From Clostridiales bacterium (GTDB lineage: Bacteria; Bacillota; Desulfotomaculia; Desulfotomaculales; VENG01): a stretch of DNA of 64,000 nt. Of the stretch, positions 39,178-43,971 are shown piece by piece. The stretch spans positions 186,001-250,000 of the forward strand of contig JADQBQ010000001.1 of the NCBI GenBank assembly GCA_016278505.1, in the 5' to 3' direction. Positions within the stretch are counted from its first letter, which is position 1. Every line of letters begins with the position of its first letter. Under the pieces are notes generated by a model. That model was given only the letters and a program-made list of their open reading frames with translations, was not told the DNA's origin and ran no database searches. Made by a program: the position numbers and the translations under genes.

Positions 39178-40431
39178 TTGCACAGGTTTATGATTTCCGG
39201 GGGGAATCCCCTGAAGGGGACCATTCGTGTCAGTGGTTCCAAAAATGCTGCCTTACCCATTATAGCAGCGAGTTTATTAATTGACGGTGAATGTTGTATC
39301 AAAGAGGTACCTAGGTTAAGAGATGTAGAGGTGATGAAAGACGTATTAACCTACTTGGGTGCAACTGTTAGCTGGGAAAAAAATGTAATGCGTATTGATG
39401 CACGTAATATACACGGGTATGAAATTTCCGAAGATCTAATGAGGAAAATGCGGGCATCAAATCTTGCACTGGGATCTTTATTGGGGCGTCTAAGGCAGGC
39501 GAGAATAAGTTACCCTGGTGGCTGTAATATAGGTTCCCGGCCCATGAATCTGCATCTTAAAGGTTTAAGAACACTGGGTGTAGAGATAAAGGAAAAATTT
39601 GGTTATATAACCGCCGAGGCCAAAGAGCTAAAAGGTACTGACATTCACCTGGATTTGCCCAGCGTTGGTGCTACCGAGAATTTAATGATGGCCGCTGTAC
39701 TGGCACAGGGTACAACAACACTTCGTAATGCTGCCAAAGAACCGGAAATAGTAGATTTGCAAAATTTTCTCAACTGTATGGGCGCTAAGGTCAGGGGTGC
39801 AGGAACGGATAATATTAAAATAGACGGAGTTAAGAAGCTGCACGGCAATGAACATTCCATAATCCCGGACAGAATCGAGGCCGGCACTCATATTATAGCC
39901 GGTGCTATTACCCAGGGGGACTTAACGGTAACCAATGTCATACCGGAACACGTAGAACCGTTAACGGCAAAACTTAAAGATGCCGGTGTTGGCTTGGAAA
40001 TAGCAGATGATTGGGTAAGGGTATTCACCCATGAAAACCCCAAGGCGGTGGACATAAAGACTCTGCCTTACCCTGGTTTTCCCACTGATATGCAGCCACA
40101 GATTATGGCCCTTTTAACCTTATCCGAGGGCACCAGCGTAATCACCGAGACTGTATTCGAAAACCGTTATAAGCACGTAATGGAATTGCGCCGCATGGGC
40201 GCAGATATAAGGGTGGAAGGGCAAACAGCCATCGTCAGAGGCGTCCCCCGCTTGAGTGGTGCCTGTGTAGAGGCCAGCGACCTAAGAGCCGGTGCTGCCC
40301 TGGTATTGGCGGCCATGGCGGGAGAAAATGGATCGGTTATCGACATGGCTGAACACATCGACCGCGGATATGAAAGAATGGAAAATAAATATAATGCCGT
40401 AGGGGCAAGAATCATTCGAGTGCACAGTTGA
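39178..40431 (+). CDS. murA: MurA, UDP-GlcNAc 1-carboxyvinyltransferase
   Basis: MurA (417 aa) makes the first committed step, joining PEP to UDP-GlcNAc. SGSKNAALPIIAASLL lies at the N-terminus (catalytic Lys). YPGGCNIGSRPMNLH (~residue 115) keeps the active-site Cys, so the enzyme should be fosfomycin-sensitive. FPTDMQPQ and ENRYKH are typical. TTG 39178 follows GGAGGTGACAG. It is the last recognised gene of this cluster; ftsQ, ftsA and ftsZ do not follow. Confidence 0.95.
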   Translation: MHRFMISGGNPLKGTIRVSGSKNAALPIIAASLLIDGECCIKEVPRLRDVEVMKDVLTYLGATVSWEKNVMRIDARNIHGYEISEDLMRKMRASNLALGSLLGRLRQARISYPGGCNIGSRPMNLHLKGLRTLGVEIKEKFGYITAEAKELKGTDIHLDLPSVGATENLMMAAVLAQGTTTLRNAAKEPEIVDLQNFLNCMGAKVRGAGTDNIKIDGVKKLHGNEHSIIPDRIEAGTHIIAGAITQGDLTVTNVIPEHVEPLTAKLKDAGVGLEIADDWVRVFTHENPKAVDIKTLPYPGFPTDMQPQIMALLTLSEGTSVITETVFENRYKHVMELRRMGADIRVEGQTAIVRGVPRLSGACVEASDLRAGAALVLAAMAGENGSVIDMAEHIDRGYERMENKYNAVGARIIRVHS

Positions 40432-40534
40432 TGTGGACTCTTTTTTAGTTTTGTGGGGGACAAGGCGTAATGGTTTGTCCAAGAATGTAGGAATTATAGG
40501 GGTCAGCGGGTTTGCAGAAAAAAGTATTTGATAA

Positions 40535-40642
40535 TGGACGCAGGCGGTGGCAAAGACCATTGAGAAGGAGAACAAAAAGAAGCTGCGGTTTTCGGTATGC
40601 AGCGTTGACCAGGTGAGAGAGGATATTTTTAAGTACCTTTAA
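40535..40642 (+). pseudogene. Short gene remnant after murA
   Basis: An open stretch without a start reads TQAVAKTIEKENKKKLRFSV, then CSVDQVREDIFKYL and TAA at 40640-40642. It looks like the C-terminal end of a lost gene; the parent family is not recognised. ATCGCC-TTT-GGGCGAT just after it may be its terminator. The rest of 40432-40853 holds no gene I can support. Confidence 0.4.
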
Positions 40643-40853
40643 TCGCCTTTGGGCGATGGTTTATTGGTATAATATGGTCGTATTGTTATGGTTAAAAATA
40701 AACAAAAAGCTGTGAAACCCAGATTTGATATGCACAATATGCTTATATAGCATTTTCCGGTTTAACATAGAGAGTGACACATCTTTAGGTTAATGATAAT
40801 ATAAGTTAGGGAATAACTATCATAAAGGAATTATTGATCTGTGGGGGAGAGCC

Positions 40854-41573
40854 ATGGCAGAAATATATAAAAATGCACCACTAATTGAAGCACTTTGCGA
40901 GTTCCACTTTTCTCAAGAGCAAGAATGGGACTGGACTATTCCCGGTACTATTTACGAGATGGTGAAAGGTGATTTTCCGGTAAAAAGCCAACAAAAAGGC
41001 ATAAAGGTAATAATTGACGGCAAGACAGGAAAAGCAACCCAATCTGATGATAGTACCGTTGAAAAGGTAAGGTTTTTTCGGGATGATCAAAGTGCTTTGC
41101 TCCAGGTAGGTCCCCATATTTTAACTGTTAATCAACTCTTACCTTATCCCGGTTGGGAGAATTTTAAAGATTTAATTCTTAGTAGTTTACAAATTTACAT
41201 TGATGTAGCAGATCCGGCTAAACTTGAAAAAGTTGGGCTTCGTTATATAAACCGCTTTGAAAGAACAGACACAAATCTTTTCCTTATCAAACCATATATT
41301 CCAATAAATAAACCTATTAAAAATTATTTCATGCGAAATGAACTTTATTATAAAGAAGTAGATTCTAATCTCATAATAATTATGGGTAATCAATATGACC
41401 AACAAAATGACCAAAATTTTACTATAATAGATTTAGAATTTTACTCAACCAATCAACATTATATTTCTTTTAAAAGTTACAATGATTGGTTGGAGACGGC
41501 ACACAACTGCGTGGAAGAGGCTTTTGAGTCCTGTATTTCCAAAGAATTAAAATTATATTTGAGGGGGGAATGA
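40854..41573 (+). CDS. TIGR04255 family protein
   Basis: This 239-residue protein matches the uncharacterised TIGR04255 family: the N-terminal YKNAPLIEALCEFHF and the central KVGLRYINRFER are its hallmarks. Function is unknown; the family is common in accessory islands. It starts at ATG with a GGGGGAG site, lacks signal or membrane segments, and is 1 bp from the next gene. A+T content is higher than in the mur genes, which suggests horizontal origin. Confidence 0.8.
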   Translation: MAEIYKNAPLIEALCEFHFSQEQEWDWTIPGTIYEMVKGDFPVKSQQKGIKVIIDGKTGKATQSDDSTVEKVRFFRDDQSALLQVGPHILTVNQLLPYPGWENFKDLILSSLQIYIDVADPAKLEKVGLRYINRFERTDTNLFLIKPYIPINKPIKNYFMRNELYYKEVDSNLIIIMGNQYDQQNDQNFTIIDLEFYSTNQHYISFKSYNDWLETAHNCVEEAFESCISKELKLYLRGE

Positions 41574-41574
41574 A

Positions 41575-41937
41575 ATGTCCACTTTTTTTGCTGACCTCCA
41601 CGTCCCTACTCACGATGACATGTCATTCACTTTAAGCAGAAACGGTTATGAGAGAGAACCACAGTTTGCAGACGTTGCTTTACCTAGAATAAGTTCTGTT
41701 TTTCGCGAAGAAGTTAGAGTGTTAAGTGAAGATATCCATAAAATTATTCAACAAACAAGAAATATGTGGGATGAAGTATGTCAGCATGAACTAAATGATT
41801 TTGAATATCCGGTTGATTATGAGTTGCCACCCGTAAAGCCTATGGCAAGCAAATATGTAAAGACAAAAGTTGCTTGCAAAGAAGAGGGGGAAGTAGATTT
41901 AAGTTTTTTGGATGAGTTTGAATATCTCTTTGATTAA
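41575..41937 (+). CDS. Hypothetical protein, second gene of the TIGR04255 cassette
   Basis: This acidic 120-residue protein (STFFADLHVPTHDDMSFTLS onward) has no recognised domain. It contains a helical middle (REEVRVLSEDIHKIIQQTRNMWDEV). It is translationally close to the genes on both sides (1 and 26 bp), so the three probably act together. GAGGGGGGAA lies before its ATG. Confidence 0.65.
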   Translation: MSTFFADLHVPTHDDMSFTLSRNGYEREPQFADVALPRISSVFREEVRVLSEDIHKIIQQTRNMWDEVCQHELNDFEYPVDYELPPVKPMASKYVKTKVACKEEGEVDLSFLDEFEYLFD

Positions 41938-41963
41938 TATCAATTCACGAAAGAGTGGGAGAT

Positions 41964-42491
41964 ATGCCAGACAATTACCCGTGGTATACATTAATAAACG
42001 AAGATATGGTATTGCAGGGAGACATATTTGAATTTTTTGATATTTTGGTGCCAATAGAAGCAGAAGTTGATGAAAATAATACAATAAATTCAAAGATAGA
42101 GCAATATAACGTAATTGTTATGTCACAATCATGTGATTTAGAGGCCTCTAAAATAGATTTTGTGTTACTTTGTCCTGTTATAGACGTTGACGTTTTTACA
42201 GAACAGGCTAGTGGCGCTTTTAAAGGGCGTAAAGGCCTAGAACAAATTAGAAGAGGTGTAATACCTGGTTTGCATATGATTGCTGAATGTAATTTGGATA
42301 ATTGTCTTAGGCCAATAAGAATTGTTAATTTCCATAAAATATTTAGTATGCCAATTAACTATGTAAAGGAAATTGCTCAAAAAAACGGTGATAGAATTCG
42401 CCTTTGCCCACCTTACAGGGAGCATCTTGCACAATCATTTGCTCGTTATTTTATGAGAGTGGGGTTGCCTATAGATATACCTAAATTTTAG
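41964..42491 (+). CDS. Hypothetical protein with VMSQSCDLE motif, third gene of the cassette
   Basis: This protein of about 175 residues carries LQGDIFEFFDIL near the N-terminus and VIVMSQSCDLEASKIDFVLLCPV near residue 50. A SQSCDL motif of this kind recurs in unnamed proteins of bacterial accessory regions, but I cannot attach a function. ATG 41964 (MPDNYPWY) is chosen over a GTG three codons earlier because of spacing from AAAGAG. It closes a three-gene unit. Confidence 0.65.
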   Translation: MPDNYPWYTLINEDMVLQGDIFEFFDILVPIEAEVDENNTINSKIEQYNVIVMSQSCDLEASKIDFVLLCPVIDVDVFTEQASGAFKGRKGLEQIRRGVIPGLHMIAECNLDNCLRPIRIVNFHKIFSMPINYVKEIAQKNGDRIRLCPPYREHLAQSFARYFMRVGLPIDIPKF

Positions 42492-42545
42492 AAACTATAA
42501 GAGGGATGTTAATAGGGGGAATTCAGCCCCCGCCTTTTTATATGT

Positions 42546-42668: not shown

Positions 42669-42778
42669 CCTTATTCCTAATAAAGAAAAATAGGTTATTA
42701 AATCGGAGGCTTTTGTCTTCGGTTTTTTTAGCCCAAAGAGGCTTAAAGGGTACATTATATTTTAAGGAGGAACAGGAT

Positions 42779-43015
42779 TTGACGCTTGAAGCGCAGGTTA
42801 GGCAATTAGAAGCAGAAAGTGTCCAGCTTAAAAAGCCGAAAATGGCTCTAACGGTAGAGGAAGCGTCCAGGGAGACGGGGATAGGTAAATCAGCCATATA
42901 CTTGCTGGTCTATAAAAAATGGCAAATTCCCCACCGCCGAATTAACGCAGTTGGCAAAAAGGGGCAAGGTAAAATCCTGATACCCAGGGCTGCGCTGGAA
43001 AGTGAAGCATGGTAG
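42779..43015 (+). CDS. Excisionase-family HTH DNA-binding protein
   Basis: This 78-residue protein has a short coiled N-terminus (LEAQVRQLEAESVQLKK) and an HTH_17 domain (MALTVEEASRETGIGKSAIY, VYKKWQIPHRRI) ending RGA-type IPRAALESEAW. TTG 42779 lies 8 bases after AAGGAGG. Such proteins are excisionases or small regulators of mobile elements; no integrase is nearby. Confidence 0.7.
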   Translation: MTLEAQVRQLEAESVQLKKPKMALTVEEASRETGIGKSAIYLLVYKKWQIPHRRINAVGKKGQGKILIPRAALESEAW

Positions 43016-43456: not shown

Positions 43457-43645
43457 TCATGCGTTTATCACTGTGGAGATACGTAAATTGCAACCTGATA
43501 AATTGCCGACCAGGGGGATACCAACCTCCATATCGTCGGGTATCAGTAATATTCTTTGAATAAATTCTTCTCTTAACGGAGGAGAGCATTTCTTTTTATT
43601 GTCTAAGTACCGTGAAACCGACTTAGCAAGTTCGACATTAGCCAT
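43457..43645 (-). pseudogene. RelE/ParE-type toxin, broken C-terminus
   Basis: The product MANVELAKSVSRYLDNKKKC to DDMEVGIPLVGNLSGCNLRIS follows RelE/ParE toxins up to the VGxPLxGNLxG...LRI segment, then stops after TVINA. The missing C-terminal strands (YRVIY...) appear in shifted frames just downstream, with further stops. It is 12 bp after the antitoxin gene. A frameshifted, probably inactive toxin. Confidence 0.5.
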
Positions 43646-43656
43646 ATTTAACTAGG

Positions 43657-43833
43657 CTATTTATTTAAGAAATCGTCTAAAGAAATGGTAGCTCCCGATC
43701 GAGCTTCCTTGCGGCCCTGGTCAACTTGACGCATGGCTTTTTTGTCTGCCAAAAGGGACTTAGTGGCAGCTACCCTCATTGATACCGGTTTATTTTTACC
43801 CTTTCTCCTTTGGATGTTAGTTGCTTCAGGCAT
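43657..43833 (-). CDS. Probable antitoxin of a type II toxin-antitoxin pair
   Basis: This 58-residue protein starts at ATG 43833 behind AGAGGAGGG. It is very basic and ends RQVDQGRKEARSGATISLDDFLNK, the 'G...SLDEFL' ending common in small antitoxins next to RelE/ParE toxins. It precedes a truncated RelE/ParE-like frame. Identification rests mostly on that pairing. Confidence 0.5.
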   Translation of the reverse strand: MPEATNIQRRKGKNKPVSMRVAATKSLLADKKAMRQVDQGRKEARSGATISLDDFLNK

Positions 43834-43971
43834 ACTAACCCTCCTCTTTCTATCTTTCTTGTTTCTCATTAGTTTATCACCTTCCATTTGTGTGGACAAG
43901 TTTCTTCTTACCATTCCTGCCATTATTCATAGTTATTTAACTGGCAGATGTGATTATTTAAAAGGCTTTGT

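Follow-up and report, generated by a model that had tools for sequence, protein, structure and literature searches.

Which process do three small genes serve that lie side by side behind a mur cluster in a Clostridiales genome, and do they serve it together? The locus was examined within a stretch of 64,000 nucleotides (positions 186,001 to 250,000 of contig JADQBQ010000001.1), hereafter the window, in which all positions are counted. The original prediction saw in the trio one system, possibly acting in defence or stress. Our results support the idea of a single system and lead us to propose, with a probability of roughly 0.6, that the three genes make up a toxin-antitoxin-type module in three parts: a TIGR04255 helper, a middle antitoxin and a toxin that we name after its SQSCDL motif.

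A compact cassette in an A+T-rich segment

The three genes are co-directional and the features of the locus are as follows.

40774..40802, + strand: possible promoter GTGACA-17-TAATAT, its second hexamer preceded by TG, ahead of the TIGR04255 gene; a mere consensus match
40854..41573, + strand: TIGR04255 family protein, 239 aa, NCBIfam 155.3 bits; first gene common to all modules
41575..41937, + strand: middle protein of 120 aa, acidic (pI 4.6) and fast-evolving; proposed to be the antitoxin/adaptor cognate to the third protein
41964..42491, + strand: SQSCDL protein, 175 aa (178 aa from GTG 41955); predicted MazF/CcdB fold; proposed toxin/effector
42515..42531, + strand: intrinsic-terminator-like hairpin, GGGGGAATTCAGCCCCC then GCCTTTTT; GC-rich stem and T run at the cassette end

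The reading frames proved to be as tightly packed as had been described, with 1 nt between the first and middle genes and 26 nt between the middle and third genes. The latter distance is counted from ATG 41964, which is a likelier start than GTG 41955 because the GTG sits inside a ribosome-binding-like GTGGGAG. The A+T richness is equally real, since the G+C content of the trio (34.4%, compared with 45.4% for the window) is lower than in any of 312 equally long stretches that were sampled. Signals resembling promoters and terminators should be read against their background: 12 promoter-like sites were found versus 8.8 +/- 3.0 in shuffles, and four terminator-like sites versus 1.7 expected. The placement behind the mur cluster agrees with the upstream neighbour, which reads by eye as murA-like and ends at 40431. 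Between this gene and the cassette, a short coding remnant (40463-40640, ...KKKLRFSVCSVDQVREDIFKYL then a stop) looks as if other genes had once occupied the cassette site. On the other side, the HTH gene and the toxin-antitoxin remnants that had been announced fared differently. The small ORF directly behind the cassette (42713-43015) matches HTH_17 in Pfam at 5.7e-6, just under the cut-off, is excisionase-like and is possibly the trace of an integrated element, while the two small ORFs on the minus strand (43457-43923) resemble a decayed toxin-antitoxin pair by eye only. The host genome, 3.9 Mb in 56 contigs, contains a single TIGR04255 gene; it also has five PemK/MazF family matches elsewhere than in the cassette.

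The first protein is securely assigned to TIGR04255 (155.3 bits for a curated cut-off of 30 bits, E 2.4e-45), its residues 5-232 aligning on positions 2-247 of the 252 of the model. TIGR04255 is a curated family that is found sporadically through bacteria and has so far no function. Within a literature search that covered mostly open-access papers, no paper naming this family was found, nor one on DUF7689 or DUF6941, two families that appear below. None of the three cassette proteins has a meaningful Pfam match or a PADLOC match at E <= 1. Against PHROGs, the first protein matches phrog_5464 at 7e-7 and the third one matches phrog_4575 at 2e-5; neither of these groups has an assigned function.

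Predicted folds of the third and first proteins

The third protein is predicted to adopt a MazF/CcdB fold. Its AlphaFold2 model, computed from 19 sequences, has a pLDDT of 86.4 and a pTM of 0.84. In a Foldseek comparison with the PDB, the best 37 rows are MazF-type toxins plus one CptN type III toxin, some of them named merely toxin or endoribonuclease; the best one has an E-value of 5.4e-3 and a probability of 1.00, and the whole-query TM scores are about 0.44. Similarly, all 50 rows listed by VIA-align are MazF-type, Kid, CcdB or CptN toxins, headed by MazF-mt3 (Z 9.4, 2.9 A, 108/109 residues), and CcdB aligns at Z 9.0 and 2.7 A over 100/103 residues. At the sequence level, the SQSCDL profile aligns weakly with 32 PemK proteins (P 0.024) in the same register as the fold match, placing QGDI over the RGDI of MazF, SQSCDL over QNDIGN and VIVMSQSCDLEASKIDFVLLCPV over the MazF strand-loop-strand. 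A PDB sequence search with the same profile returned only chance-like matches, such as a B-cell linker protein at E 0.003. The C-terminus FARYFMRVGLP resembles AINLMFWGI of CcdB by eye only, and searching Planctomycetota with a CcdB profile did not yield a set that could be used.

The conserved residues of this protein are its own. The invariant polar set comprises Q18-G19-D20, Q55, C57, D58, E153, Q157 and R165, the first six being identical in 19/19 rows, and the C-terminal helix YREHLSQSFARYFMRVGLP is near-invariant. As for the catalytic Arg and Thr of MazF, the register of the single weak alignment puts N (9), D (9) or T (1) at the site of the Arg in the 19 rows, and D (13) or other residues, never T, at the site of the Thr; read by this register, the catalytic pair is not kept. 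Moreover, the ORF 41955-42491 has no PF02452 (MazF/PemK) match at E <= 1, and no CcdB match in Pfam was found for the protein. Together, the fold matches, the missing PF02452 match and the loss of the catalytic pair suggest that SQSCDL uses the MazF/CcdB scaffold while standing outside the MazF family as tested here. It has wider kin, as profile comparisons link it to broader third-gene groups with QGD/CD motifs (P 2e-7, 1e-5, 4e-5 and 9e-4).

The loss of the catalytic pair could be taken to mean that SQSCDL is a MazF-fold binder devoid of catalysis and that the trio is a regulatory or protein-quality-control unit. This would also suit the short hydrophobic stretches (score >= 1.6) that occur in 11/83 middle proteins versus 3/83 third proteins. 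However, the strictly invariant polar set peculiar to SQSCDL and the true toxin families that exchange into its slot speak against a dead scaffold, and we hold this explanation to be improbable.

For the first protein, the model (pLDDT 82.4) predicts a two-repeat antiparallel alpha/beta fold whose nearest solved folds, all weak, are the guanidino kinase catalytic domain, SAM decarboxylase and TBP. The best match to a guanidino kinase domain has a Z of 9.1 (3.9 A, 187 residues); a kinase function was nevertheless dropped because the conserved residues do not back these matches, only M1, E12, W101, H217 and F224 being invariant or nearly so. Each half of the model is reminiscent of SecB in the succession of its strands and helices. 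Kinship with this chaperone was likewise abandoned, although the fold comparison is compatible with a distant link: a profile comparison with E. coli SecB alone gave nothing, hhalign against four SecB proteins gave no likeness (P 0.77-0.88), the protein has no SecB (PF02556) match in Pfam, and SecB is absent among the fold matches listed for the model. A PDB sequence search with the TIGR04255 profile yielded only chance-like matches, for instance methyltransferases at 0.1.

TIGR04255 genes recur with exchanged partner pairs

Co-occurrence of the three families was then examined in other genomes. A genome scan with the SQSCDL protein detected 17 loci (Planctomycetota, Spirochaetota, Fibrobacterota-type MAGs, Bacteroidota and one actinomycete), a class-wide search 6 positive genomes out of 113, a phylum-wide profile search 4 out of 398, and a scan of viral contigs 6 loci. 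Far from being confined to this genome, the trio keeps its order and spacing throughout its occurrences in Bacillota, Spirochaetota, Bacteroidota, Planctomycetota, Actinomycetota, Fibrobacterota-type MAGs and prophage-type contigs, and this constancy across phyla gives good support to the proposal of one system. Of the 17 genomes whose loci came from the first scan, 12 carry TIGR04255. Its background carriage is 4/249 genomes in Bacillota, 12/247 in Bacteroidota, 20/246 in Actinomycetota, 33/197 in Planctomycetota and 11/198 in Spirochaetota, in samples that include the centre genomes, the window's own among them.

When loci were found by SQSCDL only and had enough upstream DNA, TIGR04255 preceded SQSCDL at a distance of 273-470 bp in 17/27 cases, the gap being filled by a small ORF. 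This count leaves aside two loci lacking upstream DNA (L006, L024), a fragment (L040), a weak case (L007), a locus without SQSCDL ORF (L025) and four loci found via TIGR04255. In another five (L028, L029, L030, L037 and L038), a protein of 138-148 aa, which we take to be DUF6941-like, stands in the place of TIGR04255; it was identified through its similarity to one member of this set. The last five have neither. TIGR04255 and its replacement may thus be two unrelated proteins in the same helper role. As for mobile DNA, tblastn with four SQSCDL-family proteins found none on plasmids and none in phages, and three trios are located on contigs classed as viral (L026, L027, L031). TIGR04255 itself was found in three plasmid records, one of which has a HEPN-like third ORF (L042) and another genes unknown to us (L043). 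The former (L042:5001-6695, Thermus brockianus plasmid pTB1) carries TIGR04255, a 192 aa ORF and a HEPN-like 130 aa ORF in an annotation gap; the cassette adjoins VapC, and cas6 is nearby.

A census of TIGR04255 loci chosen regardless of SQSCDL revealed that the unit is wider than the predicted fixed trio: order and spacing do recur, but TIGR04255 behaves as a hub for many partner pairs. The census covers 73 of 84 eligible loci (the 11 left out all belong to Planctomycetota) from phyla that had already yielded SQSCDL, without Pseudomonadota; four loci from centre genomes were excluded and ORFs were called mechanically. A tight next gene follows TIGR04255 in 62/73 loci, overlapping its stop by 4 nt in 30 of these 62, and the tight three-gene layout is found in 57/73 loci, 16/73 being without it. 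Third genes could be scanned in 66 cases (seven loci yielded none), the scan covering genes behind TIGR04255. Pfam recognised PIN (6, VapC-type), PemK (3), DUF7689 (3), HEPN (2), HNH (1) and AAA (1) proteins, besides two M48 peptidases and an aldehyde dehydrogenase that are unrelated neighbours of trio-less loci. On the same 66 genes, PADLOC recognised HEPN_IX (3), PDC-M32B (3), PtuB (1, at 5.7e-22) and the HEC-01A ATPase (1, at 4.6e-55). In the PtuB case (L129:1411-3306), TIGR04255 and a small gene precede a Septu-type HNH protein, and in the ATPase case (L106) they precede a HEC-01A-type ATPase. Two Bacteroidota loci (L134, L136), in which a small gene is followed by one for an HTH protein and then by a SecB-like one, are probably TAC systems.

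Beyond these matches, third genes were classified by phmmer clusters or by eye; HicA-like genes belong to the latter category, and the two that were tested have no Pfam match. By sequence, 13/73 third genes cluster with SQSCDL and 13 more fall into two unnamed families, HAI and RRV, which bear the motifs HA.I.GWP and RRV...SAF...HA.V.G (L065, L071, L103, L111, L119 and L130; L090, L092, L093, L114, L121, L124 and L131, respectively). Since the RRV profile matches one HAI protein, both are seemingly related, and they are candidates for new toxins. For many of the third genes, the family is not known to include toxins. Profiles of six third-gene classes run against the 1641 census ORFs gave one match outside the third slot, at L128, whose middle gene was missed in ORF calling, this specificity being partly circular because the profiles were built from those same genes.

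Several of these partners could indicate an inducible defence against phages rather than a toxin-antitoxin pair in the strict sense: TIGR04255 would detect a phage product, and the third protein would act as a nuclease-type effector, harmless until triggered. Trios on viral-classed contigs, PDC-M32 models matching 3/66 third genes and 1/51 other rows, one Septu-type PtuB and one HEC-01A ATPase in the third slot, and one locus beside VapC and cas6 all point in that direction. Yet PDC-M32 is itself a mere candidate, and ordinary type II toxin families (PemK, PIN) are among the third genes, so that we consider a dedicated anti-phage system improbable.

What is the role of the middle gene in the module? 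The window's middle protein is as acidic as originally stated (pI 4.6, with 25 D+E for 12 K+R). It has neither a known antitoxin domain nor an HTH_3 match, and its layout, tight and with the middle gene before the third, fits a toxin-antitoxin pair. Many antitoxins carry an HTH domain, often those that regulate their own expression. Among the middle proteins scanned, HTH_3 is found in at least 7/58; apart from HTH models, the matches comprise a YdaS model and one for a sigma-70 region. A general function as membrane anchor was discarded, hydrophobic stretches with a score >= 1.4 being found in only 24/83 middle proteins, along with 12/83 third proteins and 17/82 TIGR04255 proteins; the window's middle protein has no such stretch (0.58).

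The middle and third genes change together. For HEPN (4 loci), DUF7689 (4) and PemK (3), the clusters of middle proteins coincide with those of third proteins. Across 81 loci, 59/130 homologous middle pairs share their third-gene cluster, whereas shuffling gives a mean of 20.1 and a maximum of 51. Outside the MazF-fold group, the figures are 46/97 versus a mean of 4.7 and a maximum of 17 in 2000 shuffles. Ten loci without a partner pair had been dropped before shuffling (L076, L077, L083, L086, L096, L112, L113, L115, L117 and L133). On a TIGR04255 tree of 75 rows, built by a quick method, at least 22 changes of third-gene class are needed versus 44-53 in 200 shuffles, indicating that the partner class follows the tree in part, yet has been switched many times. 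With the five best-defined classes only, 10 changes remain over 37 rows. Indeed, the 13-row clade that holds the window's TIGR04255 (97% SH-aLRT) includes SQSCDL, HEPN and PIN partners. If a shared helper worked with cognate antitoxin-toxin pairs, the middle and third genes would be expected to change in a coupled manner around a common TIGR04255, and from this co-variation we infer that the middle protein is the cognate antitoxin.

Conversely, TIGR04255 itself might be a hyperpromiscuous antitoxin that binds the third proteins, with the middle protein as adaptor or co-effector. As the sole constant part, paired with many toxin folds, it would resemble Panacea as described in PMC8832971. Against this, it is the middle gene that co-varies with the third, as a specificity part should, and that stands between the two; besides, the first position is held by another gene in five SQSCDL loci, and in five more no first gene was recognised. 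On balance, we judge an antitoxin role of TIGR04255 unlikely and retain the three-part module with a middle antitoxin.

Proposed mechanism and relation to known systems

We favour a toxin-antitoxin-type reading because the third gene has a predicted MazF/CcdB fold and because known toxin families replace it elsewhere. Free SQSCDL protein would arrest growth, either by RNA cleavage with residues other than those of MazF or by CcdB-like binding to a target. The acidic middle protein, produced from the same transcript just before SQSCDL, would be its specific antitoxin and mask it. By analogy with the SecB-like chaperone of TAC and CmdTAC, TIGR04255 would hold or stabilise a labile middle protein, or sense a trigger, and hence decide on toxin release; phage or another stress might be the trigger. 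In this scheme, toxicity, neutralisation, the part of TIGR04255 and the trigger are what we infer, and a role of the cassette in defence or stress, as initially suggested, is plausible. A broader proposal, made tentatively and at slightly less than even odds, is that TIGR04255 defines a new and widespread class of tripartite toxin-antitoxin systems, in which it acts as a non-SecB holdase or trigger and SQSCDL is a new branch of the MazF/CcdB fold. The class would encompass at least eight partner types: SQSCDL, PemK, PIN, HEPN, HicA-like, DUF7689, PtuB-type HNH and AAA ATPase. The identity of the partners gives a functionless family a testable job in growth control or antiviral defence, and its modules offer a handle on what turns such systems on, phage or stress. 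If the proposal is true, TIGR04255 is another shared helper besides SecB-like chaperones and Panacea, and the unnamed families in the third slot are probable new toxins.

Among known systems, MazEF, PemIK and CcdAB resemble the second half of the cassette by the predicted fold, by QGDI at the place of RGDI and by a small acidic protein encoded just upstream. SQSCDL differs from MazF, Kid and CcdB by a longer insert, the invariant Q, C and D of its motif and the near-invariant C-terminal helix. TAC and CmdTAC offer a parallel in architecture, as they too have three genes in a row, of which the one for the chaperone accompanies a variety of toxin-antitoxin pairs. According to PMC5105189, a SecB-like chaperone is common to the unrelated pairs HigBA, HicAB and MqsRA, and in CmdTAC (PMC11618068), the chaperone protects the antitoxin, is the phage sensor and is drawn off the antitoxin by a phage capsid protein. 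In contrast, TIGR04255 has no sequence kinship with SecB, occupies the first position of its operon and has a wider toxin set (MazF-fold, PIN, HEPN and others). In the same vein, Panacea pairs one domain with many unrelated toxin folds (PMC8832971) and is proposed as a sensor (PMC10440598, PMC8832971). The likeness lies in one common partner for many unrelated toxin folds; however, the common domain of Panacea (PanA/DUF4065) is within the antitoxin of mostly two-gene systems, whereas the common protein of TIGR04255 modules is a separate gene, with a second, toxin-matched gene between. DUF4065 is absent among the Pfam matches of the cassette proteins and of the scanned middle proteins. PDC-M32 was listed as a phage defence candidate in a Sinorhizobium prophage (PMC12429752). 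Its M32B model matches 3/66 third genes and its M32A model 1/51 rows, mostly of TIGR04255, while the window's own three proteins have no match; part of the TIGR04255 landscape had thus been flagged earlier as a defence candidate through a few relatives. What appears to be new here is a shared component, TIGR04255, that by sequence is neither SecB nor Panacea and that would serve a whole series of cognate pairs in a three-part toxin-antitoxin-type module.
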